Of a stretch of DNA of 33,779 bases, positions 9,273 to 31,913 are shown piece by piece. The stretch comes from Gammaproteobacteria bacterium (lineage in GTDB: Bacteria > Pseudomonadota > Gammaproteobacteria > GRL18), in NCBI GenBank assembly GCA_026196615.1, contig JAPHSW010000013.1, positions 1 to 33,779 on the forward strand, read 5' to 3'. The notes under the pieces were generated by a model. The model was not told the DNA's origin. It made no database searches and saw only the letters and a program-made list of their open reading frames with translations. The number at the start of each line of letters is the position of its first letter. The stretch's first letter is position 1. A program made the position numbers and the translations under genes.

Positions 9273-9827
9273 CTAGCCAGTAATTATTTCAAAGTCATAA
9301 GAAATATAGACAGGTTTTTCCTGTTCAATAATTGTTTTTATCAACCTGAGTTGATGTTTGTGTTTCTCTGGGATCTGAACCAGAAAATGAAAATCCTGAT
9401 CTTTTCCATTTTTATTGACACCATCTCTAATTTTTATTTCATTAGAACCCGTTGCAATATTCAAAAACTGGCTCAACCCTTTTTGTGTACCTCGCCACTG
9501 TGATAAATAAGCAGCAGAAAGGATCAGTTCCTGTAAACAATCTCTACTTATAAAATCATTATTATCTGTACTGTCTGAGTCTAAATTATCATGCCAAAGA
9601 CGTTCCAGATCAGTCCAATAGCCCAGGTATTCAATAAATTTTTCTTTAGGTGTCCGACATGGATTAAAAAAATCTTCAATTGTCTCCAACTGCACTTCAG
9701 TATCAACATGCAATAAATGCATAACATCTATTAATACTGATAGAATCGTATTTTCATTATTATTTTTGTCACCCAGTGTCTGAAGAAACACATCAGGTAT
9801 TAGTGCTTCAATTTCAGAGTGATTCAT
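9273..9827 (-). CDS. Tail protein I-like baseplate component
   Basis: This 184-residue protein resembles the phage tail protein I family. It begins with a PDVFLQTLG segment. An N-terminal helical region includes FFNPCRTPKEKFIEYLGYW (about residues 53-71) and is followed by LSAAYLSQWRGTQKGLSQFLNIATG, a pattern typical of P2 gpI-like proteins in phage tails and CIS baseplates. The C-terminal part (FHFLVQIPE, KPVYISYDFEI) is the usual β-rich end. The gene overlaps the end of the baseplate J gene by 14 bases. In related particles this protein sits in the outer baseplate where fibres attach, but no fibre gene follows here. Confidence 0.75.
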   Translation of the reverse strand: MNHSEIEALIPDVFLQTLGDKNNNENTILSVLIDVMHLLHVDTEVQLETIEDFFNPCRTPKEKFIEYLGYWTDLERLWHDNLDSDSTDNNDFISRDCLQELILSAAYLSQWRGTQKGLSQFLNIATGSNEIKIRDGVNKNGKDQDFHFLVQIPEKHKHQLRLIKTIIEQEKPVYISYDFEIITG

Positions 9828-12441: not shown

Positions 12442-12861
12442 TTACATCAATGTTAACGTTAAAACCAGTTCATCATCAATTTCAAGTGAACTAATCTTAT
12501 AACTAAGATTTATGTCCATCTTACTGCTATCCATATCATTACTGCTGGCATCAATACTTGTGATTATTATTCTTGGTTCCCACTGTTCCAGTGCACGAGT
12601 GACATAATGAATAGCCAGACCATGAGTAGTTGCGTCATTGGGCATAAAAGTCAAACGATAAAGTTCACACCCATAGTTCGGTCTCCTAATACGTTCACCC
12701 GGCATAGTTGACAATAGTAAGAGAATCGACTGTCTTATTGCCATAGCACCTTGCACAAGAGCAACTTTACCATCATGGCTACAGGAAAAACCGGGATTAG
12801 ATTTGTCCCAATCAAAATCAGGATGATTAAACTGCAGGGCATTATATTGCTTAACTAACAT
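12442..12861 (-). CDS. gp25/GPW-like baseplate wedge protein
   Basis: This 139-residue protein matches the gpW/gp25 family. GAMAIRQSILLLLSTMPGERIRRPNYGCEL (about residues 38-67) contains the family core PGERI.RP.YG. DATTHGLAIHYVTRALEQWEPRI follows, then a C-terminal strand pair. In T4, T6SS (TssE) and eCIS (Afp9) this small protein joins the sheath to the baseplate wedge. Its ATG begins immediately after the PAAR gene's TAA, so the two are translationally coupled. Confidence 0.9.
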   Translation of the reverse strand: MLVKQYNALQFNHPDFDWDKSNPGFSCSHDGKVALVQGAMAIRQSILLLLSTMPGERIRRPNYGCELYRLTFMPNDATTHGLAIHYVTRALEQWEPRIIITSIDASSNDMDSSKMDINLSYKISSLEIDDELVLTLTLM

Positions 12862-13212
12862 TTATATTTCCACCAAAAGATTTTGACCTGAGCTATTAAC
12901 AGTATAATTAATCGTCCCGGGCGGCACACCATCAGTCAATCCCGTTAATGACTCAAGACAAATAGCTTTGCCCTTGATAAACAATAATTGAGAGTGCCCC
13001 TTTTTCTCATTTATCGTTGTTAAGCATGGCTTTGACCCTCCAGATGCAGGTATAGGACAACCTGCTATGGGTCTGCTTATCAGATCACCTTTTACCAGTA
13101 TGGGAATATTATTAATGGTAACCAGATTTTGTGTTGCAATAATACCCACAATTCCAGTTAAATGATCACATTGCAATACAGCAGTTTGAGTTATTATTTT
13201 CCTGGCCATCAT
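12862..13212 (-). CDS. PAAR-like spike tip protein
   Basis: This 116-residue protein has the pattern of the small PAAR-like tip proteins in CIS operons. It begins ITQTAVLQCDHLTG, then has VTINNIPILVKGD and AGCPIPASGGSKPC, and ends with SLTGLTDGVPPGTINYTV. Cysteines near residues 15, 52, 63 and 85, with His17, could coordinate a metal at the tip. It overlaps the VgrG-like gene by 4 bases (ATGA), and tip and spike must assemble together. No toxin extension is present, so it is a bare tip. Confidence 0.8.
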   Translation of the reverse strand: MMARKIITQTAVLQCDHLTGIVGIIATQNLVTINNIPILVKGDLISRPIAGCPIPASGGSKPCLTTINEKKGHSQLLFIKGKAICLESLTGLTDGVPPGTINYTVNSSGQNLLVEI

Positions 13213-14783
13213 CCTTCCTCAAAGTTGATTCTACTGGCACGAATAGTAACCGTATTACCAGGAGCCTGGATAACAAGCGGACCTTGAGAATTAACCAGCA
13301 GCTCATCATCAGACATGGCAATACGATTTCCTGATAAGGTACTCATCATTGCGGTTTCTTCTTTGAGTTCAAAAGTGGATTCTGACTGGTTGATAAGGCT
13401 TATTTTTTCTTCCTTATCATCAAGCCTCAAGGCCTGACCACCAGGCGTCAAAATTGAATATCGACTCACTTCTCCATCAACAATAATTTCATCGGGCAAG
13501 GCTGTTTCACCATAGAGTCCACCCAGCACAATTGCTTGCTCAATTCGCTCATGCAACATGATAAGTAACACCTTATCATCAATAGCAGGCAGCGCGATAA
13601 TGCCTTTATTATCTCCTGCCCCAGGAATTAACACTTCAAGCCAGTTACTTTCAATATTGTTATAAGTCGGCAAACAGACTTTAACCCTGCCTGTACCTTC
13701 TGGATCAGAAATTTGACTTACAATTCCATAAGTCACCAAAGTTGATTTTGAGCGTTTTTTTAATACCGGCGGTTGACTGGAAAATTCAGTAATAAATCCT
13801 GAAAATGGGTTGATAGAATGTGAAACCTGTGTCAAACGGTATTTTTTCCCATTGTCCAGTGTTAACAGACCTTCTAGCTCGATGTCCATTCCAGGATACA
13901 AGTCGCTGCTGCCTTCAGCCTGGCCAATTACATAATTCCTCATAGCGTTAATTCGCTGAGTTTGAGTTTCTGCCAGCGTTTTTAATTGTTGCTCACTCTG
14001 AGCTGGTTGATCCACAATGCTGGTTTGATAGACCTTGGAACCTCCTGGATTAATTGAAGAAAAATTATTTTCTATCGATTCACTCAAGGAATCTTCCATA
14101 AATAATTTTGTTCGTTGAGGATCCCAGCCAGAAATAAGTGTTTCAATTTCGGCACTGCTATCATGATTTTTTACCACGACTTCCAGTAAGTTTGAACGAT
14201 AGTCAAGCTGTAACGGTGATTGCTCAATAGCTAGTTTGACAAAACTCAATACATTATTATTTAAAGTAAAATACAGACCACTTCTTTCTGATAGTTCTTG
14301 TAAAAACTCAAGACTAGATGATTGATATTGAACCAGATGACTCCACAATGGCCCACTTTCTAAAGCATTAATTTCCACACCATAGCCTGACATCATTTGT
14401 TCAGCAATATCAATTAAAGTCACATCAACAAAAGAACGAACCGGATATTCAAGCGAAAGAAAATATAACTCATCATAAGCAGTTATTTGAATTGAAAACT
14501 CTTGGTCCTTGCTATAGTGATGAGCAAAGGAGGTAATATAACCAGAAAAAATCGGACTTGTGTCACTTTGCACAATAATAACAATTTGACTTCGTTCCGT
14601 TAGATTTATTGCCTGATTTTCATATTGATTTTTTGTCAGAACCAATTGTAATTGACATTCACATGCCATCTGAAAATTATGTTTAATTTTAATTTCAGTA
14701 ATAGTTGTCTCAAGGGTATTATTAATTTTTATACCATCAATTAAAATATCAATTTTCTTATTAAAATTAAGCTGACTGGTCAT
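13209..14783 (-). CDS. VgrG/gp27-gp5-like spike protein (Afp8 type)
   Basis: This 524-residue protein has an N-terminal gp27/phage late control D region (about residues 1-330, including YFLSLEYPVRSFVDVTLIDIAEQMM). A gp5-type OB fold follows (about 348-435: TYGIVSQISDPEGTGRVKVC, then NWLEVLIPGAGDNKGIIALP and DDKVLLIMLH). A short repetitive β-helix needle closes the protein. It would form the trimeric hub and spike carrying the PAAR tip. No C-terminal effector domain is fused. It starts 9 bases after the Afp7-like gene. Confidence 0.9.
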   Translation of the reverse strand: MTSQLNFNKKIDILIDGIKINNTLETTITEIKIKHNFQMACECQLQLVLTKNQYENQAINLTERSQIVIIVQSDTSPIFSGYITSFAHHYSKDQEFSIQITAYDELYFLSLEYPVRSFVDVTLIDIAEQMMSGYGVEINALESGPLWSHLVQYQSSSLEFLQELSERSGLYFTLNNNVLSFVKLAIEQSPLQLDYRSNLLEVVVKNHDSSAEIETLISGWDPQRTKLFMEDSLSESIENNFSSINPGGSKVYQTSIVDQPAQSEQQLKTLAETQTQRINAMRNYVIGQAEGSSDLYPGMDIELEGLLTLDNGKKYRLTQVSHSINPFSGFITEFSSQPPVLKKRSKSTLVTYGIVSQISDPEGTGRVKVCLPTYNNIESNWLEVLIPGAGDNKGIIALPAIDDKVLLIMLHERIEQAIVLGGLYGETALPDEIIVDGEVSRYSILTPGGQALRLDDKEEKISLINQSESTFELKEETAMMSTLSGNRIAMSDDELLVNSQGPLVIQAPGNTVTIRASRINFEEG

Positions 14784-14792
14784 ATTATTTCC

Positions 14793-15398
14793 TTAAACCA
14801 GATAGTTATTGATACCAGTATTTGCATCATTGAATGTCAAATCACTTTCTGACATTGATTTCTGAGTCATTGTTGTTACTTCCTGATTAACATCATCTAC
14901 AGGATAATTATCATCATTAATAAGCTGATTCTGTTCATTTGTTTGAGCAATTTTTATTAATCTCACTCTTAACCAGGAACGTTTGGGGACACCAGAACTA
15001 TCAAAGAGATCAAATCGTTCTGAGATAGAACTAATAACACAGGGTATATTCCAGCTTTTTCCCCATACAAAGCGAGATAAACCCGGTTGATATTCACCGT
15101 CCATTAACGTTGAGTTTTCAGATAAATCCCAAATTGGTTTGGTTAACTCTCTAACATCCTGGCTTTGAATTGTTGAACCTTTTATGGAAATATCAAACAC
15201 TAAATCCAGTTCCAGAACCGTATTTCCACCACCACTAAAAATTAATCCATCATCAGAGGATTTATCAGCATTGATAACCACTGATTTTATAGTTCTTTGA
15301 TGAATCCCCGAGCGTCGTTTAATAACCAGTGTTTCCGGATTAAGCATACAACTAATAAGATGTCCTGTTTTTTCTACTAAAAATGTTACCCGTTCCAT
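14793..15398 (-). CDS. CIS tube/Afp7-like tube-initiator protein
   Basis: This 201-residue protein fits the contractile-injection-system tube protein family that connects inner tube and spike. It begins RVTFLVEKTGHLISCMLNPETLVIKR and shows GGGNTVLELDLVFDIS and VRELTKPIWDLSEN, then FVWGKSWNIPCVISSISERFDLFDSSGVPKRSWLRVRL. Many homologues end in a LysM domain. Here the last 45 residues are polar (QNQLINDDNYPVDD and onward) with no obvious LysM. The start overlaps the upstream 356-residue gene by 13 bases. Confidence 0.8.
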   Translation of the reverse strand: MERVTFLVEKTGHLISCMLNPETLVIKRRSGIHQRTIKSVVINADKSSDDGLIFSGGGNTVLELDLVFDISIKGSTIQSQDVRELTKPIWDLSENSTLMDGEYQPGLSRFVWGKSWNIPCVISSISERFDLFDSSGVPKRSWLRVRLIKIAQTNEQNQLINDDNYPVDDVNQEVTTMTQKSMSESDLTFNDANTGINNYLV

Positions 15399-16456
15399 AA
15401 AACACCTCTGACATCATTATTACCTGGAATTTCTTTTAGCATATAAATATCATCTAAATAGATATTGCTCCACACGTCATCAGGAAGCTCTTGCCAATAA
15501 TCTTTTTGTGTTTCATCAATAGCAAAACACTCATCTCTTTGTAAAAAAATAGTCTTTGCTTCGTCGAATAACCATCCTGTTTTTTGTTCTGGCAGCTGTT
15601 CAAATTTTTCTTTAATAAAATGATCAATTTTTATTTGTTTAGGCCTTTCTTCTTTATAAAAAAAACCTGAAGGGGAGCTTTCAGACCTGTAGTTATCACC
15701 ATAAGAAACACTATGATTATTGTTATCAACATTTATTGTCTGTGTAATATCACTTTTTTTATTAATAATATTTTTTTTATATCCAACAGTCTTTTTTATA
15801 TTTGATTTAATAGTAAATTGACTAGTGTCTTTAATTTGTGACTTATCAGAGCTATCAGAATTATCAACTTCTGACTTGATGCTCATGATTGATAATTCTG
15901 AATCTCTTAGAATTGGCCTCATACGTTTAACTTTACGCACTTTATTATTTTCTTGTATAGACTCTCCAGTATTCAGTCTGCCAGAAAAATGTATTTTTTC
16001 TTTATTTTTATGATGCTCTTTTAATTTCTTAACTTTTTGTTCAGGGATGACTGCTAATTTAGAAAATATCATCTTGTTTCTAAATAGATTTTTCGTAACG
16101 GCTTTATTTTTCTTAGCAGCAAAAACATTTGCTGTAATTATTTTCTGTTGTGTGTTTTTTAAGTTTTCATTTGAGTTATTTTTTATAATACCTTTCCCTG
16201 GCTTCAAATGTTTTCTTATCACATTTTTTATAAAAGAATCTGGATTAAGATGGTTACGTTTGATTAAATTTATCCAATGTTTTGGCGCATTTGAATAATA
16301 CTCATCTAAGGCATTACTTTCTTTATTCAACAAAAAAAATTGTGATACTACAGTGTAAAAAAAGACCACAGTCGTCTTTAATCGATCTACCAGCGTGCTT
16401 AGCATGCTGGTATAGAGATAAGAAAAACGACTCTTATTTTTTTTGTTAAAAAACAT
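15386..16456 (-). CDS. Unrecognised lysine/asparagine-rich protein between tube and Afp7-like genes
   Basis: I cannot assign this 356-residue protein to a family. It begins with lysines, then a helical and partly hydrophobic region (about residues 12-43, TTVVFFYTVVSQFFLL). The middle (about 70-270) is Lys/Asn/Ser-rich, low in hydrophobics and likely disordered. A more ordered C-terminal part follows (about 275-356: KIDHFIKEKFEQLPEQKTGWLF, then a tryptophan/aspartate-rich tail). It starts 2 bases after the tube gene stops and overlaps the next gene by 13 bases, so it is surely expressed with the structural genes. In other eCIS loci this slot usually holds a very small protein. Tape measure, cargo or cargo adaptor, and membrane adaptor are all possible. 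Confidence 0.65.
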   Translation of the reverse strand: MFFNKKNKSRFSYLYTSMLSTLVDRLKTTVVFFYTVVSQFFLLNKESNALDEYYSNAPKHWINLIKRNHLNPDSFIKNVIRKHLKPGKGIIKNNSNENLKNTQQKIITANVFAAKKNKAVTKNLFRNKMIFSKLAVIPEQKVKKLKEHHKNKEKIHFSGRLNTGESIQENNKVRKVKRMRPILRDSELSIMSIKSEVDNSDSSDKSQIKDTSQFTIKSNIKKTVGYKKNIINKKSDITQTINVDNNNHSVSYGDNYRSESSPSGFFYKEERPKQIKIDHFIKEKFEQLPEQKTGWLFDEAKTIFLQRDECFAIDETQKDYWQELPDDVWSNIYLDDIYMLKEIPGNNDVRGVLWNG

Positions 16457-16458
16457 AG

Positions 16459-16911
16459 TTAGTCTCGTTCAAGTCCTTCATGAGCAATAACCATCGACTC
16501 AATAGCAACACCTTGATCCAGGGCATTCAGTTTTGCTGCATTCCATTCACACACCCATGCATTGTGCAAATTATAACGAAAGTACTCCGAACCATCAGGC
16601 TTGAGCATCATAACTGAAATTTCACGACGCTCTACTTCACCCGTGACGCTCGCTGTCAGCCAGTTCCATAATTCAAGTGATTCACTCATTCCCCAACGAA
16701 AAGTAATCTCACTGTATTCAACTCGCCCAGCTAATTTTCTTACTGCCGGTGCACCGCCACCTTCCCTGTAGTCAATTGGTTTAATACGCATTCCAAGCCC
16801 TTCCACTTCTGAGAAGTTGACTTGTATTCCCTGTCCAATATCCACAATAAAATTATAATTACGTATAATCTCTGGTTCGCTTAAAGCCTGGTTGGCTTCC
16901 TGGTCAGCCAT
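16459..16911 (-). CDS. Inner tube protein (gp19/Hcp-like)
   Basis: This 150-residue protein matches T4 gp19-like tail tube proteins. It shows NYNFIVDIGQGIQVNFSEVEGL, then IDYREGG, KLAGRVEYSEITFRWGMSES and LWNWLTASVTGEVERREISV, ending YNLHNAWVCEWNAAKLNAL and IESMVIAHEGLERD. It polymerises into the rigid hexameric inner tube pushed out on contraction. Only one tube gene is present, whereas Afp/PVC-type loci have two. It lies 42 bases after the sheath gene. Confidence 0.92.
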   Translation of the reverse strand: MADQEANQALSEPEIIRNYNFIVDIGQGIQVNFSEVEGLGMRIKPIDYREGGGAPAVRKLAGRVEYSEITFRWGMSESLELWNWLTASVTGEVERREISVMMLKPDGSEYFRYNLHNAWVCEWNAAKLNALDQGVAIESMVIAHEGLERD

Positions 16912-16953: not shown

Positions 16954-18165
16954 TTACTCAGACTCTGCTTCACTATCTTCAGTTTCAACTTCTGTACCAC
17001 CCGCCCATTGACCAATCTTAAAGACTATAAATTCTGCGGGTTTAACGGGTGCTATACCAATTTCAATTTCCAGACGACCCGAGTCAATAACGGCCTGAGT
17101 ATTTATTTCACCATCACATTTAACAAAAAAAGCCTGCTCTGGTGTGCTACCCTGTAGCGCACCATCTCGCCATATCAAAGTCAAAAAAGCACTCACATCT
17201 CGGACAATTGATTTCCAGAGAGTTTCATCATTTGGCTCAAAGACGACCCATCGGGTACTCTCACTAATGGATTCTTCTATCATCATAAACAAGCGACGGA
17301 CATTGATATATTTCCATTCACCATCATCCAGAGTTCTTGCACCCCATACTTTAATACCTGTAGTGGGAAAGCTGCGTATGCAATTAACTCCTTTGGTATT
17401 TAGTTCACCCTGCTCACCTGATGTAACAACATAAGACAAGCCTAATGCTCCATTCACTGATTCATTAGCAGGTGCTTTGTGAACACCTCTATTAGCATCT
17501 GTTCTGGCATAGATACCAGCCATAAAACCCGATGGCGGTGCTGTAATAATTTTTTTCTTACGCGAAAGAGGTGCTTGAATTAACAACCAGGGAAAATAAA
17601 ATGCAGCATAGCTGGTGTTCTTTGGCCTGAGGCCAACATTATTTTTTTCTTCAGTTGCTTTTTTTGTACCACTTGTAATGCTTGCAACTGTTTTTAATTG
17701 ATCGATATTAGCCACTTCATCGGGGGAATCCAGTATAGCAATTCGATCTTTTAATTTCTCACAATGATCAATCAGTGCCGTATGTGAAACAGTATCAAAA
17801 TATCCTGGTGCTGCAACCATAGCAATTTCATCAATTGCTTCAAAAGCACATAAACCACTGCGTTGCGCCACATCCCCCATAATTGTTTCATTTTCGGGAT
17901 TATTAACAATGTAACATCGAGTTCCACCATTATTAAAAAAAGAAAAAACAGCCATCGACAAATGAGTGTCATCTCCTCCAGCATTGCTGGCAAACTCTCT
18001 CACAAACTGAGTCCAGTTATTGCAGGCAATTGCTTTATTCAAATTAGCCTTTTTATCAGGTGCTACCCCAATAAAAGCAGCCGTCTGTGTACCAACCATG
18101 CTGATCGGTTTTGAACCCGTTGATACCTCTTGGATATAAACTCCGGGAGTTGCATAACTAGGCAT
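16954..18165 (-). CDS. Contractile tail sheath protein
   Basis: This 403-residue protein starts MPSYATPGVYIQEVSTGSKP, the classic sheath N-terminus, with AAFIGVAP and FFNNGGTRCYIVN following. The conserved C-terminal sheath domain contains PPSGFMAGIYARTDANRGVH, INCIRSFPTTGIKVWGARTL-like segments (here VNCIRSFPTTGIKVWGARTL), YINVRRLFMMIEESI and RLEIEIGIAPVKPAEFIVFKI. It assembles around the inner tube and contracts to drive it forward. It is the only sheath gene here, shorter and simpler than multi-sheath eCIS sets. The tail after residue 390 is acidic. Its start overlaps the DUF4255 gene by 8 bases. Confidence 0.95.
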   Translation of the reverse strand: MPSYATPGVYIQEVSTGSKPISMVGTQTAAFIGVAPDKKANLNKAIACNNWTQFVREFASNAGGDDTHLSMAVFSFFNNGGTRCYIVNNPENETIMGDVAQRSGLCAFEAIDEIAMVAAPGYFDTVSHTALIDHCEKLKDRIAILDSPDEVANIDQLKTVASITSGTKKATEEKNNVGLRPKNTSYAAFYFPWLLIQAPLSRKKKIITAPPSGFMAGIYARTDANRGVHKAPANESVNGALGLSYVVTSGEQGELNTKGVNCIRSFPTTGIKVWGARTLDDGEWKYINVRRLFMMIEESISESTRWVVFEPNDETLWKSIVRDVSAFLTLIWRDGALQGSTPEQAFFVKCDGEINTQAVIDSGRLEIEIGIAPVKPAEFIVFKIGQWAGGTEVETEDSEAESE

Positions 18166-18841
18166 TATTATCCTCCAGTTTTGTCAATGAAATGGTTATT
18201 TCCTGTCCATTATATTTTTCATGTTTGTATGAATATTTCTGATTGTCCGTGCGAGTATAGATGGTAATTATTGATGGTGAAGCCGTAGAAACTTGTCCTA
18301 AATCAAAGCGTCCAGAACGATCTGTCAAAACTGATCGATTACTTAACTCGACTCTGCAGTTTGAAAGAGGTTTATTATTCTGATCCAGTAGAGTGCCAAA
18401 AATAGGACTCATTGGTGTGGTAACAATATTGGGTTGTTGCTCAACCAAAGGTGCTTCTGTTTTTATTCTGGGAATATCAAGTACATAAGTTAATGAAAAT
18501 AAGGGACGAGGAATTATCTTAAACGCTTGCCAATGTTCAATTGGCAGCAAATCAGGTAATAAATTAAAAACAGGATGTTCACCATCTGACAACAATAACT
18601 GAGACATAATATCATGGGCTTGTTCATCAGACTCAGAGCAAATAGTGATAAGGTATTTTAGTTTAATTTGAATAAATAATGGATTCGTATTGCCCATCAT
18701 TTTTTCAAGGGAAGTCAGATATACGCATATTTGATTATTTTTCTCATAATCTTTTGGCGCACAAAACTGGACATCGACACCTTTAACAATATCGTTTAGC
18801 CACTGTTTTATTTGTTCATTAACCTGTCCGATCAAAGCCAT
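18158..18841 (-). CDS. DUF4255 (Pvc16/Afp16-type) tail terminator/cap with extra C-terminal β-domain
   Basis: This 227-residue protein opens the CIS operon. Residues 1-135 match DUF4255: MALIGQVNEQIKQWLND, QICVYLTSLEKMM, IKLKYLITICSESDEQAHDIMSQLLL and FSLTYVLDIPRI. This family caps the end of sheath and tube. Residues 145-222 form a carboxypeptidase-regulatory-like β-sandwich (IFGTLLDQNNKPLSNCRVEL, VLTDRSGRFDLG). The start follows an AGGG sequence at short spacing, so initiation may be weak. Confidence 0.85.
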   Translation of the reverse strand: MALIGQVNEQIKQWLNDIVKGVDVQFCAPKDYEKNNQICVYLTSLEKMMGNTNPLFIQIKLKYLITICSESDEQAHDIMSQLLLSDGEHPVFNLLPDLLPIEHWQAFKIIPRPLFSLTYVLDIPRIKTEAPLVEQQPNIVTTPMSPIFGTLLDQNNKPLSNCRVELSNRSVLTDRSGRFDLGQVSTASPSIITIYTRTDNQKYSYKHEKYNGQEITISLTKLEDNNA

Positions 18842-19303: not shown

Positions 19304-22111
19304 ATGTGGTCTTTATTTTCTGCTGTTCCTGTTAAGTTATCCATTATCCTTTTTTTACTTGCCCTTCTTCCTGCATGCTCTGAACAAAGTGATGCTACCA
19401 ATTCCTCTAGCACAAACAAACTATCTAACAATGATTTTTGCAATCTTAACAGTCGTGTAGCTTCTGCTGATGGAAAACATCGCATAGCACTAATTTTAGG
19501 CGTTAGCCAGTATAAAAGTGAAAAAATTAATGATCTAAAAGGCGCTTCAGCTGATGCTAAACGGTTTTATCAATTACTGACAGATGAAGCAGGCTTTCAA
19601 TTCCCTAAGGAAAATGTCTGCATGCTGCTTGATAGCGATGCCAATAAAAAAGCAGTTATTAATGCATTTCAGGAAAGGCTAATTAAGACTGCCAAAAAAA
19701 ATGATATTGTGGTGTTTTACTATGCAGGCCATGGTTCACAAATAACGGATAAAAATAATGATGAACCTGACAATATGGATGAAACCTTTGTACTACATGA
19801 TTCACGCTCTGATGATGTATCAGATTTTATTGATGATGAATTCAACAAGTTACTGAGCCAGCTCTATAAAAAAACTAACAATATTTCTATTTTTCTTGAC
19901 TCCTGTAATTCAGGTACAGCAGCACGTGGTGATTATACGGCTCGTTTTGTCACCCCTCTGATACTTGAATCAGATTATAGTACTCAGCAAAGTCGCGCAG
20001 TAGGTGACAGCACCCCGGAAGAAAACATTGATTCCATGCCAGGCATTGTTTTATTTACCGCAGCCAGTGACGGCACATCAGCATTAGAGCGTTCTGGACG
20101 AGGTATTTTTACCGATGCCTTATTATCCTCTTTTGCTTCTGCATCGGGTTCACCCATGACTTATCTACAAGCCTCAAGAAAAATTCCAGCTCAAATACTA
20201 GCCCAACAAAGCAACCAAATCCCTTATTTTCAAGGTAATCTTGAACAGTTTATTTTTTCAAGTGAACGAATTAAAAAGCCCTTTTCATGGGATATTACAA
20301 AAGTTGTTAAACCTGACAGTAGTAATGGAGTTCATTTAAGTGGTACTCCAATGCCAGGCATGGGTGTCGGAGCAGAGCTTAGAATCTTCCCGGGAAATAC
20401 CAATAAAAAAGATAGTCAGGATATAAAAAATTCAAAAGCCACCATCGTCATAGATACCATGGAAGGCTTAACAGCCAAAGGACATGTCAATACACGAATC
20501 AAGAAAGCAGCGGCGATTCAAGCTGGCGATTATGCAGTACTGGTATCTCCCTCTGATAAGAAAACAATCATTACTGTGTCATTCCGTAATAAAAATAAAG
20601 CGGGTGCAATTCCAGCCCCTATAATCAAAAAAATTACCCATGAACTTAAGAATAATATCAATGCTGGAAAGGTCATTCGTATTGTTCCTGAAAATGGTGA
20701 TTTTGAACTTGCCTATAAACAAGACAAGGGCATTTCAATTATAGGACCGGAAAATAAAATACGGGCACAATTTGTCTCTGAACAGAAGGTTATCCATAAT
20801 TTATGGCAACATGCGAGACATCGTGCTTTATTACAACTGCATGGTGAAGGGGGTAAAGATTTTGTTGATAACCAAACCTTACAAGTGCAATTAATCCCCA
20901 CACAAAAACAAAATAAATGCAGCAACAATAATAAATGGCAACAGGCACCTGCAAATACTAAACAGTTAATCCCTCTTTGTCACAAATGGCAAATTAAAGT
21001 GTCTTACCAGAAATCATCAAAAAATTTACCCAAATTACTCATAGGTGGTGTTATCCAGTCATCTGACGGCAACTCTTTTGGACTTCCTAATGATGGTTCT
21101 ACAATTGCTCTAAGCCCTGGGGAAGAAGTTATTCTACCACGAACATTTATTGGTCAATTACCTCTGGACACTACTGATACCTTAATTATATTTGGTACTC
21201 AGGAAACAAATCCTGTGCACTGGTATCTATTAACCGATATTAACCGCTCAGACACTCGTAACACTTCAAGTCCTCTGCAAACTAAGATTGACCAATATCT
21301 CACTCTGACACGTGGTATAGGCGAAGTCAGCAACAGCGATCCTGACACATCAACCTGGACTATGAGTATTGTTCCTATGAGAGTCGAGGCCAATAGTCGT
21401 TTTCTAAAAGCCAAAAATAATAATTCAGCTTCTGAATTTGACACCAGAGAATATACAATTCAGCAGTTTAATATACTTCCTTATTTGCCAGATAATGAGC
21501 AGTCACCTCTTTACCGGGTTTTACAAACAGCTGATCAACTGGCCAAATCATCTATTAATGATGGCTATCCTTATACACAACATGACTGGAGTCAGGGAAG
21601 TGATGCTAAAAATCTGCAAAAAGGTATCGATTGTTCACGATCAATCTGGTATTCATTTACCCGCTCAGGATTAGACTATAACCGCAAGAATAATTACTTA
21701 ACAACAAAAGAAATGGCCACGGATAATTCACTGATGAATGATGAATTCATCCGTTGTGATAATAAACCATTAGAAATTGGCGATGTGCTTGTTTATCGAG
21801 ATGATACTCGTGGAGATGGTCATACCATTATGGTTATTGATCCACAAAAAAGAATTGCCTGGGGTTCACATGGGTGGGATGGCAGCGGTAAAGCACTTAA
21901 AATTGAACCTGATACCGGCGTTGAATATCAACTTATCAAATACAAAAAAGACTGGCAGCGCTGGGACAGAAAGACCATGTTTAAAAAAGCCTGTTGGCGA
22001 TATAAGCAATTTACTCAAGAAACATCTGCTGACAGCACACTGGCTCATGAAGAAACCAGAGGTTATCAGTCATTAAAAAATTATTGCCAGAGTAAAAAGT
22101 GCGTACCATAG
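19304..22111 (+). CDS. Lipoprotein with N-terminal metacaspase-like and C-terminal NlpC/P60-like peptidase domains
   Basis: This 935-residue protein has a lipoprotein signal peptide with lipobox LPAC (Cys25; serine at +2 favours the outer membrane). A metacaspase/C14 domain covers about residues 50-320, with His143 in YYAGHGSQ and Cys201 in LDSCNSG. The middle (about 330-700) is β-rich; residues around 560-640 resemble DUF4384, often found with caspase domains. The C-terminal region (about 760-870) looks like an NlpC/P60 papain-fold peptidase: Cys777 in GIDCSRSIWYSF, then IGDVLVY, His840 in GHTIMVID and His856 in WGSHGW. NlpC/P60 enzymes typically cut peptidoglycan peptides. The ribosome binding site AAGGAGAG is strong. 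It leads a four-gene unit divergent from the CIS operon. The caspase call is firm; NlpC/P60 is motif-based. Confidence 0.85.
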   Translation: MWSLFSAVPVKLSIILFLLALLPACSEQSDATNSSSTNKLSNNDFCNLNSRVASADGKHRIALILGVSQYKSEKINDLKGASADAKRFYQLLTDEAGFQFPKENVCMLLDSDANKKAVINAFQERLIKTAKKNDIVVFYYAGHGSQITDKNNDEPDNMDETFVLHDSRSDDVSDFIDDEFNKLLSQLYKKTNNISIFLDSCNSGTAARGDYTARFVTPLILESDYSTQQSRAVGDSTPEENIDSMPGIVLFTAASDGTSALERSGRGIFTDALLSSFASASGSPMTYLQASRKIPAQILAQQSNQIPYFQGNLEQFIFSSERIKKPFSWDITKVVKPDSSNGVHLSGTPMPGMGVGAELRIFPGNTNKKDSQDIKNSKATIVIDTMEGLTAKGHVNTRIKKAAAIQAGDYAVLVSPSDKKTIITVSFRNKNKAGAIPAPIIKKITHELKNNINAGKVIRIVPENGDFELAYKQDKGISIIGPENKIRAQFVSEQKVIHNLWQHARHRALLQLHGEGGKDFVDNQTLQVQLIPTQKQNKCSNNNKWQQAPANTKQLIPLCHKWQIKVSYQKSSKNLPKLLIGGVIQSSDGNSFGLPNDGSTIALSPGEEVILPRTFIGQLPLDTTDTLIIFGTQETNPVHWYLLTDINRSDTRNTSSPLQTKIDQYLTLTRGIGEVSNSDPDTSTWTMSIVPMRVEANSRFLKAKNNNSASEFDTREYTIQQFNILPYLPDNEQSPLYRVLQTADQLAKSSINDGYPYTQHDWSQGSDAKNLQKGIDCSRSIWYSFTRSGLDYNRKNNYLTTKEMATDNSLMNDEFIRCDNKPLEIGDVLVYRDDTRGDGHTIMVIDPQKRIAWGSHGWDGSGKALKIEPDTGVEYQLIKYKKDWQRWDRKTMFKKACWRYKQFTQETSADSTLAHEETRGYQSLKNYCQSKKCVP

Positions 22112-22132: not shown

Positions 22133-23071
22133 ATGAAAACAATATTACATAGTTTAGCTATTTTATTCACGGCTTTTTTATTATTCTCATGTAAGGCAAC
22201 CATACCTGAATTTGAATATGGCTCCAATCCAGGTACAAGTGCTCAAGAGGCACCTCAAAGTCAATACCCGCCAAGAATAGATCGCTTTGAAGCTGATCCA
22301 CAAATGGCAACACAAGGTGAACCGATTACCCTTAGTTGGGAAACACAGCATGCCACCGACGTTCACATTTCTGGCGTTGGAAGAGTGTCCCCTTCAGGTT
22401 CACGTACTATAGCAAGCCCTGGTATTGAGTTACAGGATATTATGTTGACAGCATCTAATGATGGAAATTTTGCTCCTGCAACCGACAAACTTGATGTTCA
22501 ATATACCCTTTTTTCAACAAAGGTTCCTGATGGCTATGCTGGTCCATCAGATAAGCCAATGATAATCATAGGCAATCGAGGAAATATTACCAACACTATA
22601 AACAGGTATAAGCTTCAACCTGTTAATAAATACACCATCAATAAATACCCAAACCTGAAACCATTAACACCTGTGAAACCAGTACAAGCTACCACGCAGG
22701 CAGTAAATGTAAAACCTATGATAGCAACTCCCATGTATTTCAACATGGCACAATTAACAGCACCACAGATAATCAGTCCGAGAAATAATAGTACATTCAA
22801 TCACTACCCCAGAAAATTAACTCTGCGTTGGAAACCAGTAAATAATGCATCAGCATACAATGTTGACATTGACTGCCTGAATTGTTGTGTTGCTGGCAAA
22901 TGGTGTGCTGATGTTGGCAAAAAGTTCAAGCAGGTTAAATCACAACGCAATACTTATTATCAATTTAGTTTTGTTGGCGCCCAACCTGGTCGCTGGAGAG
23001 TTCAGGCCGTTGATAAAAATGGCAAAGCAGGTAAACATAGCCCATGGACAAATTTTAAATTTACCCGATAA
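22133..23071 (+). CDS. Predicted lipoprotein with Ig-like and fibronectin-III-like domains
   Basis: This 312-residue protein has a signal peptide ending in lipobox LFSC (Cys20). Residues 45-125 look like an Ig-type β-sandwich (PRIDRFEADPQMATQGEPITLSWETQHATDVHI). A proline/asparagine-rich linker follows (about 130-215). Residues 218-312 resemble an FnIII-like domain (ITSP-type start IISPRNNSTF, KLTLRWKPVNNASAYNVDI, GRWRVQAVDKNGKAGKHSPW) and include a cysteine cluster (CLNCC and WCADVG). It starts 21 bases after the caspase gene with an AGGAGG site. It may present or restrain the upstream protease on the envelope. Function unknown. Confidence 0.75.
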   Translation: MKTILHSLAILFTAFLLFSCKATIPEFEYGSNPGTSAQEAPQSQYPPRIDRFEADPQMATQGEPITLSWETQHATDVHISGVGRVSPSGSRTIASPGIELQDIMLTASNDGNFAPATDKLDVQYTLFSTKVPDGYAGPSDKPMIIIGNRGNITNTINRYKLQPVNKYTINKYPNLKPLTPVKPVQATTQAVNVKPMIATPMYFNMAQLTAPQIISPRNNSTFNHYPRKLTLRWKPVNNASAYNVDIDCLNCCVAGKWCADVGKKFKQVKSQRNTYYQFSFVGAQPGRWRVQAVDKNGKAGKHSPWTNFKFTR

Positions 23072-23112: not shown

Positions 23113-23451
23113 ATGATGGATGATTTTTTTACTTCACAGCCAACATTTACACCATTAATGGCAGGAACTTTTACTCTAACTGCCGCTGCAACACTGGCAT
23201 CAGTTTTTGGCTTGCCTGGAAGTATTACTGCAATCACTATCAGTTTTCTTCTGGCAATAGTCATCCGCATAGATAAAAATATTCCTTTATTAAAACGCAT
23301 TGTTTTTTATCTTGTTAATGTCACAACAATCTTCATCGTTGCTATGGGGCTAAACTCAACAGGTATTTCTTTAACTCAAGATAAAGAAGACACACTGATT
23401 GAGCGTGAAGTTGAAAAAGTTGAAAAACCTTTTTTTCACTCATGGTTTTAA
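23113..23451 (+). CDS. Small membrane protein with about three TM helices
   Basis: This 112-residue protein of no recognised family has hydrophobic segments at about residues 13-35, 38-53 and 62-83, then a charged C-terminal tail (EREVEKVEKPFF). The ATG at 23113 follows AAGGAA; a second ATG is the next codon. The short stretch before it contains repeated ACCCGATAA/ACACCCAATAA units (23063-23099). It is cotranscribed with the caspase and lipoprotein genes and could be an inner-membrane partner of that module. Confidence 0.65.
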   Translation: MMDDFFTSQPTFTPLMAGTFTLTAAATLASVFGLPGSITAITISFLLAIVIRIDKNIPLLKRIVFYLVNVTTIFIVAMGLNSTGISLTQDKEDTLIEREVEKVEKPFFHSWF

Positions 23452-23477: not shown

Positions 23478-24134
23478 ATGGAAAACTTAAGAAAACCATT
23501 TTTTTATGCCGCATCAATTTTTCTTGCTCTGGCTCTGCTCATTGAACTATCAAGCGGTATTTTTGATTTTGGTATGAAAATACCTGGTCTGGGTATTCCT
23601 TCTATTGCATTAATCGACAGCCTACTGATCTTTGTTATCTTTATGATGATGCTAAATGTTTGGATTTCACCAGCCTTAATTGGAAAAATCAGTGGTATCA
23701 GTACACTCATTTTTTCTCTGATTATTCTCTTAACGGCCATTGCATTACTTTTTTTTAGCTTATTACAACTAACCTCTCTGATAGCATTGTTGTTAGCCTT
23801 TCCCTTTGGAACGGCAGCTTATTTTGCTACTTTTGCAGGATTTGATCGGGGTGGTGCAGCAGCAACACTTAGCCTGTTAATGACACTTAAGGTTCTTTTT
23901 GCTGTGTTTCTAGTCTTAGCTCAGCAGCGTTTTTTAGAAAATAAAGGGCTGATTTTTTTAATCTTTACCATGTTGATAGTCAATATTTTAGTTGGCTTTC
24001 TGCATGGCTTTCCACCTGGATTTCTGGTGAGCATTATTGATGCGCTTGCAGCCATTATTATCTCAATTATTGCTATTATCTGGTCAATTAATTTTTTTAT
24101 ACGCTCAATACCAGCAATTTTAAAAATCATCTGA
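23478..24134 (+). CDS. Polytopic membrane protein with about six or seven TM helices
   Basis: This 218-residue protein is almost entirely hydrophobic, with helices at about 9-27, 41-63, 72-93, 95-117, 127-147, 155-173 and 182-212. I see no transporter signature or catalytic motif. A loop with FGTAAYFATFAGFDRGGAAAT (about 115-135) is the only polar conserved-looking stretch. It starts 27 bases after the previous gene with a weak ribosome binding site, so coupling is likely. It closes the four-gene caspase unit. A small hairpin (CAATTC-N4-GAATTG, 24135-24150) directly follows its stop region. Confidence 0.65.
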   Translation: MENLRKPFFYAASIFLALALLIELSSGIFDFGMKIPGLGIPSIALIDSLLIFVIFMMMLNVWISPALIGKISGISTLIFSLIILLTAIALLFFSLLQLTSLIALLLAFPFGTAAYFATFAGFDRGGAAATLSLLMTLKVLFAVFLVLAQQRFLENKGLIFLIFTMLIVNILVGFLHGFPPGFLVSIIDALAAIIISIIAIIWSINFFIRSIPAILKII

Positions 24135-25972: not shown

Positions 25973-26308
25973 TTATTTTAAATGCTTCTTTAGGTCATAG
26001 TGATAGATAAAACCCGGGAGTGCAAAAACAGCAAACAAACAAAGTGTTATTGAATAGAATTCCCAGTTTTGTGAGAAATTCCAAAACTCCCAAACCTTTG
26101 CATATGCCGCACCATGCAGCTTTGTTTCAAGACCTATGGCTATGGCCATAACGATAATATATAAGAGAAACCATTCAGTAAAACGTAACCAGAAGCTCTT
26201 GTTACTGTCCGCTTTAAGTACTAAAAGAACCTTATCTGTTAGAAAAGGAATATTAGCGGCAATAAGAGTCACAATGAAGAGGATTAGGGTTGCTATTGGA
26301 GTTGACAT
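25973..26308 (-). CDS. DUF2818 family membrane protein downstream of nuoN
   Basis: This 111-residue protein has about three transmembrane helices (residues 5-27, 45-63, 84-104) and the family pattern RFTEWFLLYIIVMAIAIGLE, then QNWEFYSITLCLFAVFALPGFIYHYDL. DUF2818 genes regularly sit at the end of nuo operons in beta- and gammaproteobacteria, so a role with complex I is suspected but unproven. It begins 105 bases after nuoN, with a hairpin in between. Confidence 0.85.
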   Translation of the reverse strand: MSTPIATLILFIVTLIAANIPFLTDKVLLVLKADSNKSFWLRFTEWFLLYIIVMAIAIGLETKLHGAAYAKVWEFWNFSQNWEFYSITLCLFAVFALPGFIYHYDLKKHLK

Positions 26309-26363
26309 AATTAGCTCAGAATTTTGAATTTCTCAACATTAGAGACCTTTCAGAAAAATCCCC

Positions 26364-26387
26364 ACTCTTTCTCTGAAAAAAAAGAGT
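26364..26387 (-). terminator. Possible terminator or attenuator after nuoN
   Basis: On the minus strand ACTCTTT and AAAGAGT arms surround a 10-base loop and are followed by GGGGATTTTT. The flanking CCC and GGGG could extend pairing. The T-tract is short, so read-through into the DUF2818 gene is plausible. Confidence 0.45.
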
Positions 26388-26413
26388 ATTTTGGGAATAG
26401 TTCGATAATAGAC

Positions 26414-27844
26414 TTAAGCAAATGTGCTCATGCACAATGCAATTAATGCTGTTGGATAGAGGCCTATAGCCAGGATTGCTAGACCATTAAAACTCAAGGT
26501 CAAACGAATGTCCATGCTGGCCTGGAGAGGTGTTTCGTCAACTGGCTTATCAAAGTAAACCACTTTAATAACTCGGAGATAGTAAAAAGCACCAATAACT
26601 GATGTGACTACACCGACAACAGCAAACCAGACTAAACCACTATTAACTGCTTCTTGCAATACAGCGATTTTTGCCCAGAAACCAAGAAATGGAGGAACAC
26701 CAGCCATAGAGAACATAATTGCCATCATGACAAAGGCAAACCAGGGACTCTTTTGGTTCAGTCCTTTAAAATCATCAATATTTTCTGCTTCATAACCAGC
26801 GCGGCTGAGCAATACAATCATTCCGAAAGCACCCACACTCATAATCGCATACACAATGGCATAGAACATTGCAGCGCCATAACCTGCCTGAGTTCCAGTT
26901 ACAACACCCATGATAATAAAACCAACATGAGAAATTGTTGAGTAAGCCAGCATTCTTTTTATATTTGTTTGAGCAATGGCAATAATGTTACCAAACACCA
27001 TTGATAGAACAGAAAGGATGATTAAAATCATTTGCCAATCAGCATGCATACCTGCTAAACCATCAACCAATAAACGATACATCATAGCAAATGCGGCAAT
27101 TTTAGGTGCACTGGCAATATATAAAGTCACTGAAGTCGGTGAACCATGATACACATCTGGCATCCACATATGAAATGGGACCGCACCCAGTTTAAACGCA
27201 ACCCCAAGAATGATAAAGACCAGACCGAAGCTCATGACCACACGGTCAGCTCCTGCAACCGCTTTATTAATTGTAGCTAAATCCAATGAACCAGTAACAC
27301 CATAAACCATAGACATACCATAAAGCAGCATACCCGATGCAATGGCACCAAGAATGAAGTATTTCATTGCAGCTTCTGATGCGACAATAGAATCACGTTG
27401 CATAGCAATCATTGCGTACATTGATAAAGATAATAATTCCAGCCCGAGATATACTGTCAGAAAGTTTCCGGCTGAAACCATCACCATCATTCCAAGGACA
27501 CCAAACAAGCCCAGTGTAAAATACTCACCTTTATATATATTACGGTCTTTCAGATAATCTTTCGCATAAATAAACACACCAACAACAATGATACAGATCG
27601 ATATTTTTAAGATGCTGGCCATTGGATCAAGAATGAATGAGCCATTAAATGTGGTAATACTTTGCTCTGAGTAATTTGAAAATGAAAGAAAAGCAGTTGT
27701 AATCAATGCGATTAGAGACAGAACATAGGTAGCACCTCTGCTTTCATCTTTCAAAAACAAATCAATGATCATAATGACACAGACCATAGACAGTAAAAAG
27801 ATTTCTGGCATTGCCGGCATAAAATCAGGTGTTACAAAATTCAT
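26414..27844 (-). CDS. nuoN: NADH-quinone oxidoreductase subunit N
   Basis: This 476-residue membrane subunit is one of three antiporter-like proton-pumping subunits of complex I. It has about 14 transmembrane helices. Typical segments are VYLGLELLSLSMYAMIAM near residues 129-146 with the conserved glutamate, then FKLGAVPFHMWMPDVYHGSP and KRMLAYSTISHVGFIIMG, and the NuoN ending GLNQKSPWFAFVMMAIMFSMAGVPPFLGFWAK. Length is normal. It follows nuoM after 103 bases. Confidence 0.97.
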   Translation of the reverse strand: MNFVTPDFMPAMPEIFLLSMVCVIMIIDLFLKDESRGATYVLSLIALITTAFLSFSNYSEQSITTFNGSFILDPMASILKISICIIVVGVFIYAKDYLKDRNIYKGEYFTLGLFGVLGMMVMVSAGNFLTVYLGLELLSLSMYAMIAMQRDSIVASEAAMKYFILGAIASGMLLYGMSMVYGVTGSLDLATINKAVAGADRVVMSFGLVFIILGVAFKLGAVPFHMWMPDVYHGSPTSVTLYIASAPKIAAFAMMYRLLVDGLAGMHADWQMILIILSVLSMVFGNIIAIAQTNIKRMLAYSTISHVGFIIMGVVTGTQAGYGAAMFYAIVYAIMSVGAFGMIVLLSRAGYEAENIDDFKGLNQKSPWFAFVMMAIMFSMAGVPPFLGFWAKIAVLQEAVNSGLVWFAVVGVVTSVIGAFYYLRVIKVVYFDKPVDETPLQASMDIRLTLSFNGLAILAIGLYPTALIALCMSTFA

Positions 27845-27947
27845 AGTATTTTTACTCTAGTCCTATTTACTATTAGACAATCTAGTGATTAGGTATCGTT
27901 TCTATCGATTTATATTAAAAAGCTAAAAAATTAAAGCAACCGACTCT

Positions 27948-29483
27948 CTAAGGTAACTTTGATACTGATATCTGTGTAACCAAATTATCAATGGTTGCAT
28001 GCATTACTTCCAAAAGAGGCGCTGGATAGATACCAATAATTAAAACTGCAACAGCTAAAATAAACATCATAAAGAATTCACGCCTTGACATATCTTCTAG
28101 ATTTTCAACATTTTCATTAGCAATTGGGCCAAAAACAACGCGTTTAATCATCCATAAGGTATAGGCTGCACCAAGAATCAGGGTAATAGCCGCTAAGAAT
28201 GCATACCAGAAATTCGCTTTAAAAGCCGCCATGATGACCATGAACTCACCAACAAATCCCGATGTTCCTGGTAAACCAGCGTTTGCCATAGCAAAGAAAA
28301 CTGCAAAGGTTGCAAAAGCAGGCATTGTGTTTACAACACCTCCGTAGTCCTTAATCATACGAGAGTGCATTCTGTCATATAAAACCCCCACACTGAGGAA
28401 CATCGCTCCCGAAATGAAGCCATGTGAAATCATTTGTACCATACCACCTTCAAGACCTAACACAACACCTGAAATTGACCCCGTATTATCTGAAATTTTC
28501 CAAAACAAGAAGAATCCGAGTGTTACAAAGCCCATGTGAGAAATTGAAGAATATGCAATTAGTTTCTTCATATCAGCTTGGACAAGTGCCACAAAACCGA
28601 TATAAACAATAGCAATCAAAGATAGAATGATAACTAACCAGTCCAGAGTCATGCTCGCATCAGGTGTTATTGGTAAACTGAAACGCAAGAATCCATAACC
28701 ACCCAATTTCAACATAATAGCAGCAAGAATTACTGAACCACCTGTTGGTGCTTCAACGTGAGCATCAGGTAACCACGTGTGTACTGGCCACATTGGAACC
28801 TTCACAGCAAAGGCCAATAAGAATGACAAGAAAATTAATATTTGTGGTGTTAAAGCCAGAGGTAATTTCTGCAAGTCTTGAATATTAAAAGTACCCGCAC
28901 CATTTACATCAGCAGCATGCATATACATATACAATAGTGAAATCAGCATGAAAACTGAGCCCAGGAAGGTATATAGGAAAAACTTGATAGTTGCATAAAC
29001 GCGATTAGGACCACCCCAGATACCAATAATTACAAACATAGGTATTAATAGTGCTTCCCAAAATACATAAAACAGCATGGCATCCATTGCTGCGAATGTA
29101 CCAATCATCAAGCCTTCAAGAATTAAAAAAGCAGCCATATACTGGGCAACTTTATAAGTAATGACTTCCCATCCCGCAATGATAACAATCACTGTCATAA
29201 ATGTTGTCAAAAGGATTAATGGCATAGAGATACCATCAACACCAATGTGATAATTAATATGAAAACTACTGATCCACGGAATCAGTTCTTCAAATTGCAT
29301 ACTCGCCAGACTGGTATCAAACTGTGTATACAGTGGAATCGACAGTGCTAATGTTGCCAAAGAGACTAATAACGCAAGCACTTTAGCTTCAATGCTGTTT
29401 TTACTTCCAGCTGCCAGCACCAGCATCCCACCGACGATGGGAGTCCAAATCACCAGACTTAATAACGGCAAATTTGAAAACAT
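27948..29483 (-). CDS. nuoM: NADH-quinone oxidoreductase subunit M
   Basis: This 511-residue antiporter-like subunit of complex I has 14 predicted helices. The helix-5 glutamate is in FYVFWEALLIPMFVIIGIWG, VPMWPVHTWLPDAHVEAPTG follows, and the broken-helix lysine region reads ADMKKLIAYSSISHMGFVTL. It translocates protons as part of the membrane arm. Length is normal for NuoM. A 152-base gap, longer than usual for nuo genes, separates it from nuoL. Confidence 0.97.
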   Translation of the reverse strand: MFSNLPLLSLVIWTPIVGGMLVLAAGSKNSIEAKVLALLVSLATLALSIPLYTQFDTSLASMQFEELIPWISSFHINYHIGVDGISMPLILLTTFMTVIVIIAGWEVITYKVAQYMAAFLILEGLMIGTFAAMDAMLFYVFWEALLIPMFVIIGIWGGPNRVYATIKFFLYTFLGSVFMLISLLYMYMHAADVNGAGTFNIQDLQKLPLALTPQILIFLSFLLAFAVKVPMWPVHTWLPDAHVEAPTGGSVILAAIMLKLGGYGFLRFSLPITPDASMTLDWLVIILSLIAIVYIGFVALVQADMKKLIAYSSISHMGFVTLGFFLFWKISDNTGSISGVVLGLEGGMVQMISHGFISGAMFLSVGVLYDRMHSRMIKDYGGVVNTMPAFATFAVFFAMANAGLPGTSGFVGEFMVIMAAFKANFWYAFLAAITLILGAAYTLWMIKRVVFGPIANENVENLEDMSRREFFMMFILAVAVLIIGIYPAPLLEVMHATIDNLVTQISVSKLP

Positions 29484-29595
29484 GAATTAAATACCTTTTT
29501 TCCTAAAACTTTATAATGCTTATTCCAGACAAGCTGGATAAGTTTCTTATATGAATACTTTCATTTAAGCGACTTCAGTCACAATAAGTTTTCTG

Positions 29596-29610
29596 CTGTC
29601 ATTTTGACAG
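29596..29610. other. Small hairpin in the nuoL-nuoM gap
   Basis: A perfect 6-base-pair stem CTGTCA/TGACAG with a 3-base loop lies in the 152-base gap between nuoL and nuoM. It could be an RNA processing or stability element inside the nuo transcript. There is no T-tract, so termination is unlikely. Confidence 0.3.
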
Positions 29611-29635
29611 AAGACAAATTTATATAGACAAAAAA

Positions 29636-31603: not shown

Positions 31604-31607
31604 TGGA

Positions 31608-31913
31608 TTAACCTTTCAATGTATCAAGTTCTTCAACATTAATCGTGCGTTTATTTCTAAACAAGACGACTAAAATCGCTAAACCAATTGCAGCTTCTGC
31701 TGCAGCAACGGTAAGAATAAAGAAAACAAATACTTGCCCTGCTGTGTCATTCAAGAAGTGCGAAAAGGCAATAAAATTGGTATTCACAGCTAAAAGCATT
31801 AATTCAACACACATCAGTAGAATAATGATATTTTTTCTATTAATAAAAACACCAGCCAAACTAATGGAAAAAACAATGGCACCAAGAACTAAAAAATGAG
31901 TTAAAGTCAGCAT
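31608..31913 (-). CDS. nuoK: NADH-quinone oxidoreductase subunit K
   Basis: This 101-residue subunit has three transmembrane helices and two conserved buried glutamates needed for proton transfer, one in [19 protein letters not shown] and one in [17 protein letters not shown]. Length is standard. Its ATG shares one base with the nuoJ stop codon (TAATG), so translation is coupled. Confidence 0.97.

Follow-up and report, generated by a model that had tools for sequence, protein, structure and literature searches.

The window analysed here is a 33,779-nucleotide stretch of a gammaproteobacterial genome (assembly GCA_026196615.1, contig JAPHSW010000013.1, positions 1 to 33,779 of the forward strand). 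On its plus strand, an open reading frame (ORF) with an ATG start at 19304–22111 encodes a protein of 935 residues, which we named CaspNlpC and which the ORF, Pfam matches and alignment describe as a putatively exported caspase followed by an NlpC/P60-like domain. The gene is divergent from a contractile injection system (CIS) operon on the minus strand, running from 18841 to 4030, with 462 intergenic bases between them. Sheath, tube, baseplate and spike genes stand together in this operon, as is expected of a CIS. A preliminary description of the window had noted the two protease-like domains; the CIS neighbourhood was absent from it and is the strongest clue to the function of CaspNlpC.

CaspNlpC begins with a hydrophobic N-terminus (19304–19378) that ends in a lipobox-like LPAC at Cys25. 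The caspase domain (Pfam Peptidase_C14, residues 60–313, 19481–20242) was matched with 85.5 bits (E=6e-24, cut-off 21.4 bits) and is the sole domain of the protein above its Pfam cut-off. His143 (19730–19732), within YYAGHGSQ, and Cys201 (19904–19906), within DSCNSGT, make up the caspase dyad. The middle region (residues 321–723, 20264–21472) could be placed in no family, as Pfam returned no match at E≤0.5 for residues ~321–724 in any of the five sequences tested. The NlpC/P60-like domain follows at residues 724–905 (21473–22018), with Cys777 (21632–21634), His840 (21821–21823) and His856 (21869–21871) as candidate catalytic residues. All five residue numbers in the preliminary description are correct on the translated ORF, and the caspase dyad that it proposed is borne out by the Pfam match and by the conservation of both residues.

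A search for the same two-domain order gave, with the window, nine full-length sequences from about six lineages of Gammaproteobacteria and Desulfobacteraceae. Three relatives come from the window's own family (L039, L040 and L041; 73, 67 and 66% identity), two from Desulfobacteraceae metagenome-assembled genomes (L042 and L043, 44%), two from Methylomonas, a genus with cultured strains (L044 and L045, 47%), and one from genome G260 (46%). The caspase precedes the NlpC/P60-like domain in each. His143, Cys201, Cys777 and His840 are invariant in all nine, the first two within AGHG and DSC motifs. Compared with the distant homologues, identity is 59–64% in the C-terminal domain, 49–53% in the caspase and 36–41% in the middle region. 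Conservation of CaspNlpC is thus highest in the C-terminal domain.

All nine sequences start with a hydrophobic stretch. The strict lipobox pattern, applied here from general knowledge, is present in two of them (L040 and L041). In the window copy, Cys25 lies behind the hydrophobic stretch (LLPAC, followed by Ser) and Pro at position −2 breaks the strict pattern. Near-miss lipoboxes are LPAC in the window and L039, TAGC in L042 and L043, and QAGC in G260, while in the two Methylomonas proteins the start resembles a signal peptide and no lipobox is convincing. Export of CaspNlpC is well supported by these predicted N-termini; lipid anchoring is likely for most homologues and is not uniform. The earlier label of lipoprotein thus stands as far as the export-type N-terminus is concerned, but not for a strict lipobox in the window copy.

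The C-terminal domain carries a putative catalytic Cys and His (Cys777 and His840) in the order and motifs of NlpC/P60 enzymes. The PHROG profile phrog_1015, annotated as "tail protein with lysin activity", matched all three C-terminal domains tested (E=3.3e-8, 4.6e-8 and 8.6e-7), and tblastn against phages returned 12 Bacillus phages at ~26% identity (E=8e-3 to 9e-3). Two of the matching phage proteins, from SIOphi and 000TH009, were scanned and match NLPC_P60 at E=3.7e-18, and the domains of the phage relatives match CwlO, Spr/MepS and LytE in the PDB. We compared eight orthologous C-terminal domains, of which six were left after the hhalign filter, with seven phage NlpC/P60 domains. The hhalign score was 55.0 (E=3e-8, probability 95), and Cys777 and His840 were placed on the catalytic Cys and His of the phage domains. 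The controls scored 13.1 for the reversed alignment, at most 20.2 for 60 column shuffles, 16.2 for the caspase region and 15.7 for the middle region. We take this likeness to be more than chance, and propose that the C-terminal domain is a divergent NlpC/P60-like relative. Because its Pfam score is under the cut-off, we use the term NlpC/P60-like and do not file the domain as PF00877.

The nearest profile relatives being Bacillus phage tail lysins, and a diffocin hub-hydrolase carrying such a fold (8v3w), the domain might instead act on the wall of the target cell during injection. The phrog_1015 lysins, of the SIOphi type, give the C-terminal domain its best profile match (~25% identical), but they are structural proteins of Bacillus phages and the two that were scanned gave no caspase match. 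Hub hydrolases are built into the baseplate, whereas CaspNlpC has a hydrophobic, export-type N-terminus in all nine sequences, a caspase domain in front, and, in the window and L039, a gene that is transcribed away from the structural operon. We regard such a tail-lysin role as quite improbable.

Other results argue against the NlpC/P60-like assignment itself. The window domain scored 15.1 bits (E=0.024) against NLPC_P60, where the cut-off is 23, the best homologue reached 21.2, and all six sequences scanned fell under the cut-off. A profile of the orthologous C-terminal domains found no match among PDB sequences up to E=10. AF2, given the eight orthologues only, produced a model with a pLDDT of 49 and no meaningful fold match, and the third catalytic position, which is polar (His, Asn or Gln) in NlpC/P60 enzymes, is His856 in eight of the nine sequences and Met in G260. 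The other family matches are likewise sub-threshold: DUF4846 in the window (16.0 bits), NLPC_P60, DUF4846 and Amidase_5 in the homologues, and additionally CHAP and Amidase_6 in L040. DUF4846 may be another NlpC/P60-like wall domain, according to an excerpt of a review of papain-like enzymes (PMC10318531).

We also used AF2 with 17 shortened phage sequences added to the alignment, which makes the result partly circular, since NlpC/P60 relatives are then among its input. The best of five models had a pLDDT of 59 and a pTM of 0.63 (the other four, pLDDT 39–50); in it, Cys777 opens a helix and His840 lies on a later strand. Foldseek found no match to this model at E≤0.001. An unrelated GreA-like protein ranked first, with NlpC/P60 entries at ranks 2, 4, 5 and 7 (E 0.5–1.1). 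VIA-align, which re-examines Foldseek's own candidates and warns that Z below 8 may mean little, gave a Z of 10.0 for a phage endolysin and 7.4–8.1 for CwlO, MepS and Spr; its top 34 rows are mostly NlpC/P60 or other papain-like wall hydrolases, mostly at Z 5.6–8.6. The structure prediction that the preliminary description had suggested thus gave a mixed outcome: the model with the phage relatives is papain-like, subject to that circularity, and the orthologue-only model is too poor to judge. Of the proposed Cys777/His840/His856 triad, the first two residues hold, being invariant and aligned with the phage catalytic pair, but His856 does not hold as an invariant residue. Its register with a phage Gln comes from the alignment with truncated phage sequences and from reading by eye; hhalign and full-length MAFFT have a gap there, and MAFFT with the full phage sequences shifts the region behind His840. 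Loss of Cys777 or His840 among homologues, named beforehand as evidence against the two-domain reading, was not seen.

The variable third residue would suit a domain that binds peptidoglycan without cutting it, leaving CaspNlpC as a wall-tethered caspase, and RipD, a non-cutting binder by its PDB title, is among the weak Foldseek matches. Set against this are Cys777 and His840, kept in all nine sequences within the most conserved region, and we consider binding alone the least probable role of those weighed here. With the NlpC/P60 endopeptidases CwlO, MepS/Spr, LytE and RipA the domain shares a Cys at the start of a helix (in the model), a GD motif before the His strand and the Cys-then-His order. 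Unlike them, it falls under the family cut-off, has a long conserved C-terminal extension and is fused to a caspase.

Next to CaspNlpC, same-type CIS genes were found in all six loci with enough flank (the window, L039/L072, L042, L044, L045 and L070 with L071). L039 and L072 are one contig of genome G012, and L070 and L071 belong to G260. Three arrangements occur: divergent in the window and L039, which have the same gene order; co-directional with CaspNlpC upstream in L042, L044 and L045; and co-directional with it downstream in L070/L071, where it follows the CIS and the gene for a 218-aa protein described below. In Desulfobacteraceae L042, one strand carries CaspNlpC, a small membrane protein, a Pvc16-like protein, sheath and tube. 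In both Methylomonas loci CaspNlpC is followed by a large TPR-CHAT protein, a caspase, a Pvc16-like protein, sheath and tube, as identified by Pfam in L044 and by ORF position and tblastn in L045. The ORF sizes of L043, which was outside the six-locus tblastn test, repeat those of L042. Because the linkage persists through three arrangements, we propose a functional tie between CaspNlpC and the CIS. Directly upstream of the Methylomonas gene in L044 lie Phage_lysozyme (6157–6963) and MlaD-like (7022–7774) genes.

Two further homologues sit on short contigs. L040, on 3,975 bases, was left out of the flank test. On the 7,855-base contig of L041, tblastn found no CIS gene; in the same genome (G021), another contig begins with a window-type sheath (162 positions, E=3.7e-97), which is the position that would be expected for the same arrangement broken by the assembly.

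Further export-type proteases occur at these loci: a WD40-caspase with a lipobox in the window, a caspase with a lipobox in G260, a Sel1-caspase with a lipobox and a TPR-CHAT protein that may have a TAT signal (TAT_signal in Pfam, sub-threshold) in Methylomonas L044, and a TPR-CHAT protein with a lipobox in Desulfobacteraceae L042. Other caspases with Ig-like or PEGA parts were observed beside related CIS operons (L107:48–2570 and L070:12707–14677), as were tandem pairs of sheath-like and of tube-like genes in CIS loci (L071:8161–11296 and L108:1053–5433).

The window's CIS operon, on the minus strand throughout, opens with a Pvc16-like protein (18158–18841), which matches CarboxypepD_reg below cut-off and whose L044 homologue resembles Pvc16_N, also below cut-off. 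It continues with the tail sheath (16954–18165; Phage_sheath_1C, E=2.4e-19), the tail tube (16459–16911; Phage_T4_gp19, E=3.5e-35), a 356-aa protein of no family (15386–16456) that shows little conservation (in L039, 40% across 89 aa), a tube/spike-adaptor protein (14793–15398; CIS_tube, E=1.7e-13) and a spike/hub protein of gpD, gpV type (13209–14783; Phage_base_V, E=1.9e-16, and Phage_GPD, E=5.5e-15). The baseplate is represented by the gp25 wedge (12442–12861; GPW_gp25, E=1.8e-21) and baseplate J (9814–12423; Baseplate_J, E=1.8e-10), followed by a tail protein I-like gene (9273–9827; TIGR02242, E=9e-9, 35.5 bits, below cut-off; Tail_P2_I, E=9e-4). A PASTA protein (8456–9250; E=5.9e-7) with one transmembrane stretch, read from the sequence, comes next, and the second predicted exported caspase (4030–7755) closes the operon; it combines a strict lipobox, WD40 repeats and a C-terminal caspase with AGHG and DTC, and is kept in G012 at 61% identity. 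The Afp, PVC, MAC and Anabaena CIS share the sheath, tube, gp25, baseplate J and spike genes with this operon. An AAA ATPase is a core gene of extracellular CIS clusters; none was found in the scanned operon proteins (for the WD40 protein, among its best 25 matches), a result that covers the operon and not the remaining genome.

Downstream of CaspNlpC on the plus strand lie a 312-aa lipoprotein with a strict lipobox (22133–23071), whose C-terminus is BiPBP_C-like below cut-off and whose C-terminal part occurs in L107 as a fusion with a caspase, a 112-aa membrane protein with two hydrophobic segments and a conserved FF-x-x-WF end (23113–23451), and a 218-aa multi-pass membrane protein (23478–24134) that is near a CIS also in G260 and G149. 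A membrane protein of 112–136 aa with the FF-x-x-WF C-terminal end stands beside CaspNlpC in two phyla (in Desulfobacteraceae L042 at 10605–11015). We considered whether the 112-aa protein is a known holin and rejected this, with no Pfam match above cut-off and no PHROG match. Shared regulation of CaspNlpC and the CIS operon was likewise rejected as a candidate, with four promoter-like sites versus a shuffle mean of 4.1. One terminator-like hairpin lies on the minus strand at 19254–19225 (0.2 in shuffles), and an Rfam scan of the window found no element except tRNA. Further along, genes for respiratory complex I subunits (three antiporter-type, chain 4L and chain 6) and DUF2818, identified by Pfam on the minus strand at 25973–32512, are an ordinary chromosomal neighbourhood.

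The locus also encodes a 240-aa protein with an N-terminal hydrophobic helix. Together with the PASTA, 112-aa and 218-aa proteins, it makes up a set of several membrane or envelope proteins such as would be expected for a docked CIS. CaspNlpC might accordingly serve as a local gate: where an envelope-associated CIS docks, it would loosen the wall of the producer, which survives, and the caspase would limit or time the opening. Yet no homologue of a known docking component was identified at the locus, and extracellular CIS exit by lysis according to the available parts of two papers (PMC8213781, PMC10598620). We think such a gate somewhat unlikely.

The distribution of the gene includes several observations that weigh against the tie to the CIS. 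CaspNlpC is rare, occurring in 4 of 24 family genomes, 2 of 369 class genomes and 1 of 398 phylum genomes, the window's own genome being counted each time, and in 1 of 40 genomes of G260's family, which is G260 itself. Among the class genomes, 40 have a sheath at E≤1e-20, and four have the window's type (E<1e-150): G000, which is the window's own genome, G149, G357 and G363. The 40-contig assembly of G149, with a listed completeness of 100%, contains this sheath type without CaspNlpC and without a detected caspase, so CaspNlpC is accessory and the G149 CIS does not need it. We rejected the idea that caspases generally accompany CIS sheaths: a caspase match was found in 17 of the 39 other sheath-bearing class genomes, and among these only that of G260 is less than 30 kb away from a listed sheath match. 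Many surveyed assemblies are fragmented, and the PF00656 genome scan misses caspases, as the second G260 caspase (E=7.1e-15) and those of L107 and L070 went unlisted. Finally, the 640-contig assembly of G019, which carries L040, yielded no window-type sheath; its best sheath is of another type on another contig (E=1.3e-60), which leaves this genome undecided or against linkage. The sheath contig of G357 is short. G363 instead has a caspase-PEGA protein, which came from tblastn and hmmscan and not from the PF00656 scan, and at its C-terminus it shares 54% identity with the 312-aa lipoprotein of the window; this fusion ties the lipoprotein to a caspase. In the window's own genome, at least eight caspase domains were counted, and NLPC_P60 had no match at E≤0.001.

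G019, with the gene and no detected window-type sheath in its fragmented assembly, would fit a general cell-death or anti-phage device that merely shares a defence or mobile neighbourhood with the CIS, and the caspase part does match the PADLOC caspase model (E=1.5e-16). Against such a device, the linkage persists in two phyla and three arrangements, the plasmid collection gave no CaspNlpC match, and orthologue patterns found no close relative in the viral contig collection, where distant phage tail lysins appeared only in another search. It seems to us very improbable.

The two domains, the invariant Cys/His pairs, the export-type N-termini and the recurrence of one CIS type next to the gene in distant bacteria are instead consistent with CaspNlpC being an exported, probably lipid-anchored caspase and NlpC/P60-like peptidase that serves the release or firing of one CIS lineage. 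We give this reading, the likeliest of those weighed, a probability of roughly 45%. The C-terminal domain would cut stem peptides in the peptidoglycan of the producer itself. Its release or activation would fall to the caspase, which would act on CaspNlpC or be switched on by another exported caspase or CHAT protease. A coupling of proteolysis to wall cleavage and lysis had been put forward in the preliminary description and stands here as a hypothesis. Opening of the wall would then let cytoplasm-assembled particles leave, or an envelope-docked CIS fire; release by producer lysis is described for extracellular CIS particles in the parts consulted of PMC8213781 and PMC10598620. Orthocaspases cut after basic residues, as stated in the available portion of PMC6426788, which makes Arg715 a possible caspase cleavage site. 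It lies directly ahead of the C-terminal domain, is conserved in all nine sequences and is one of ten always-basic positions between residues 205 and 770. A wider and more speculative proposal, doubtful though worth stating, is a protease network in the envelope, made up of CHAT proteases and exported caspases, in which a peptidoglycan peptidase gated by a caspase acts as executioner; this would provide built-in release or firing of a phage-tail-like weapon without phage-type endolysin control.

Amidase_2 is a fold other than NlpC/P60. A metacaspase and Amidase_2 on one chain were reported in four sequences, with a proposed role in cell death (Asplund-Samuelsson et al. 2012, PMC3501461, consulted in part), and these proteins resemble CaspNlpC in joining a caspase-type protease to a peptidoglycan hydrolase. 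The consulted part of that paper mentions no CIS link, and "NlpC" and "P60" are absent from its main text. In the CIS papers checked for Afp, PVC, MAC and the Anabaena CIS, including PMC8894136, whose available part describes the thylakoid-anchored comparison system, PMC8213781 and PMC10598620, neither "caspase" nor "NlpC" occurs in the main text. As a kind, the combination of a caspase with a wall hydrolase has therefore already been published; neither the NlpC/P60-like pairing nor its CIS link was found in the open-licence PMC papers searched, covered mostly by title and the start of the abstract.

How a non-tailocin CIS leaves its producer, or how a cytoplasmic CIS passes through its own wall, is described solely as lysis in the available parts of the CIS literature (PMC8213781, PMC8894136, PMC10598620). 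A CIS-tied caspase and wall-hydrolase protein would give bacterial caspases a concrete pathway, and its presence in Methylomonas would make the question of exit directly testable.

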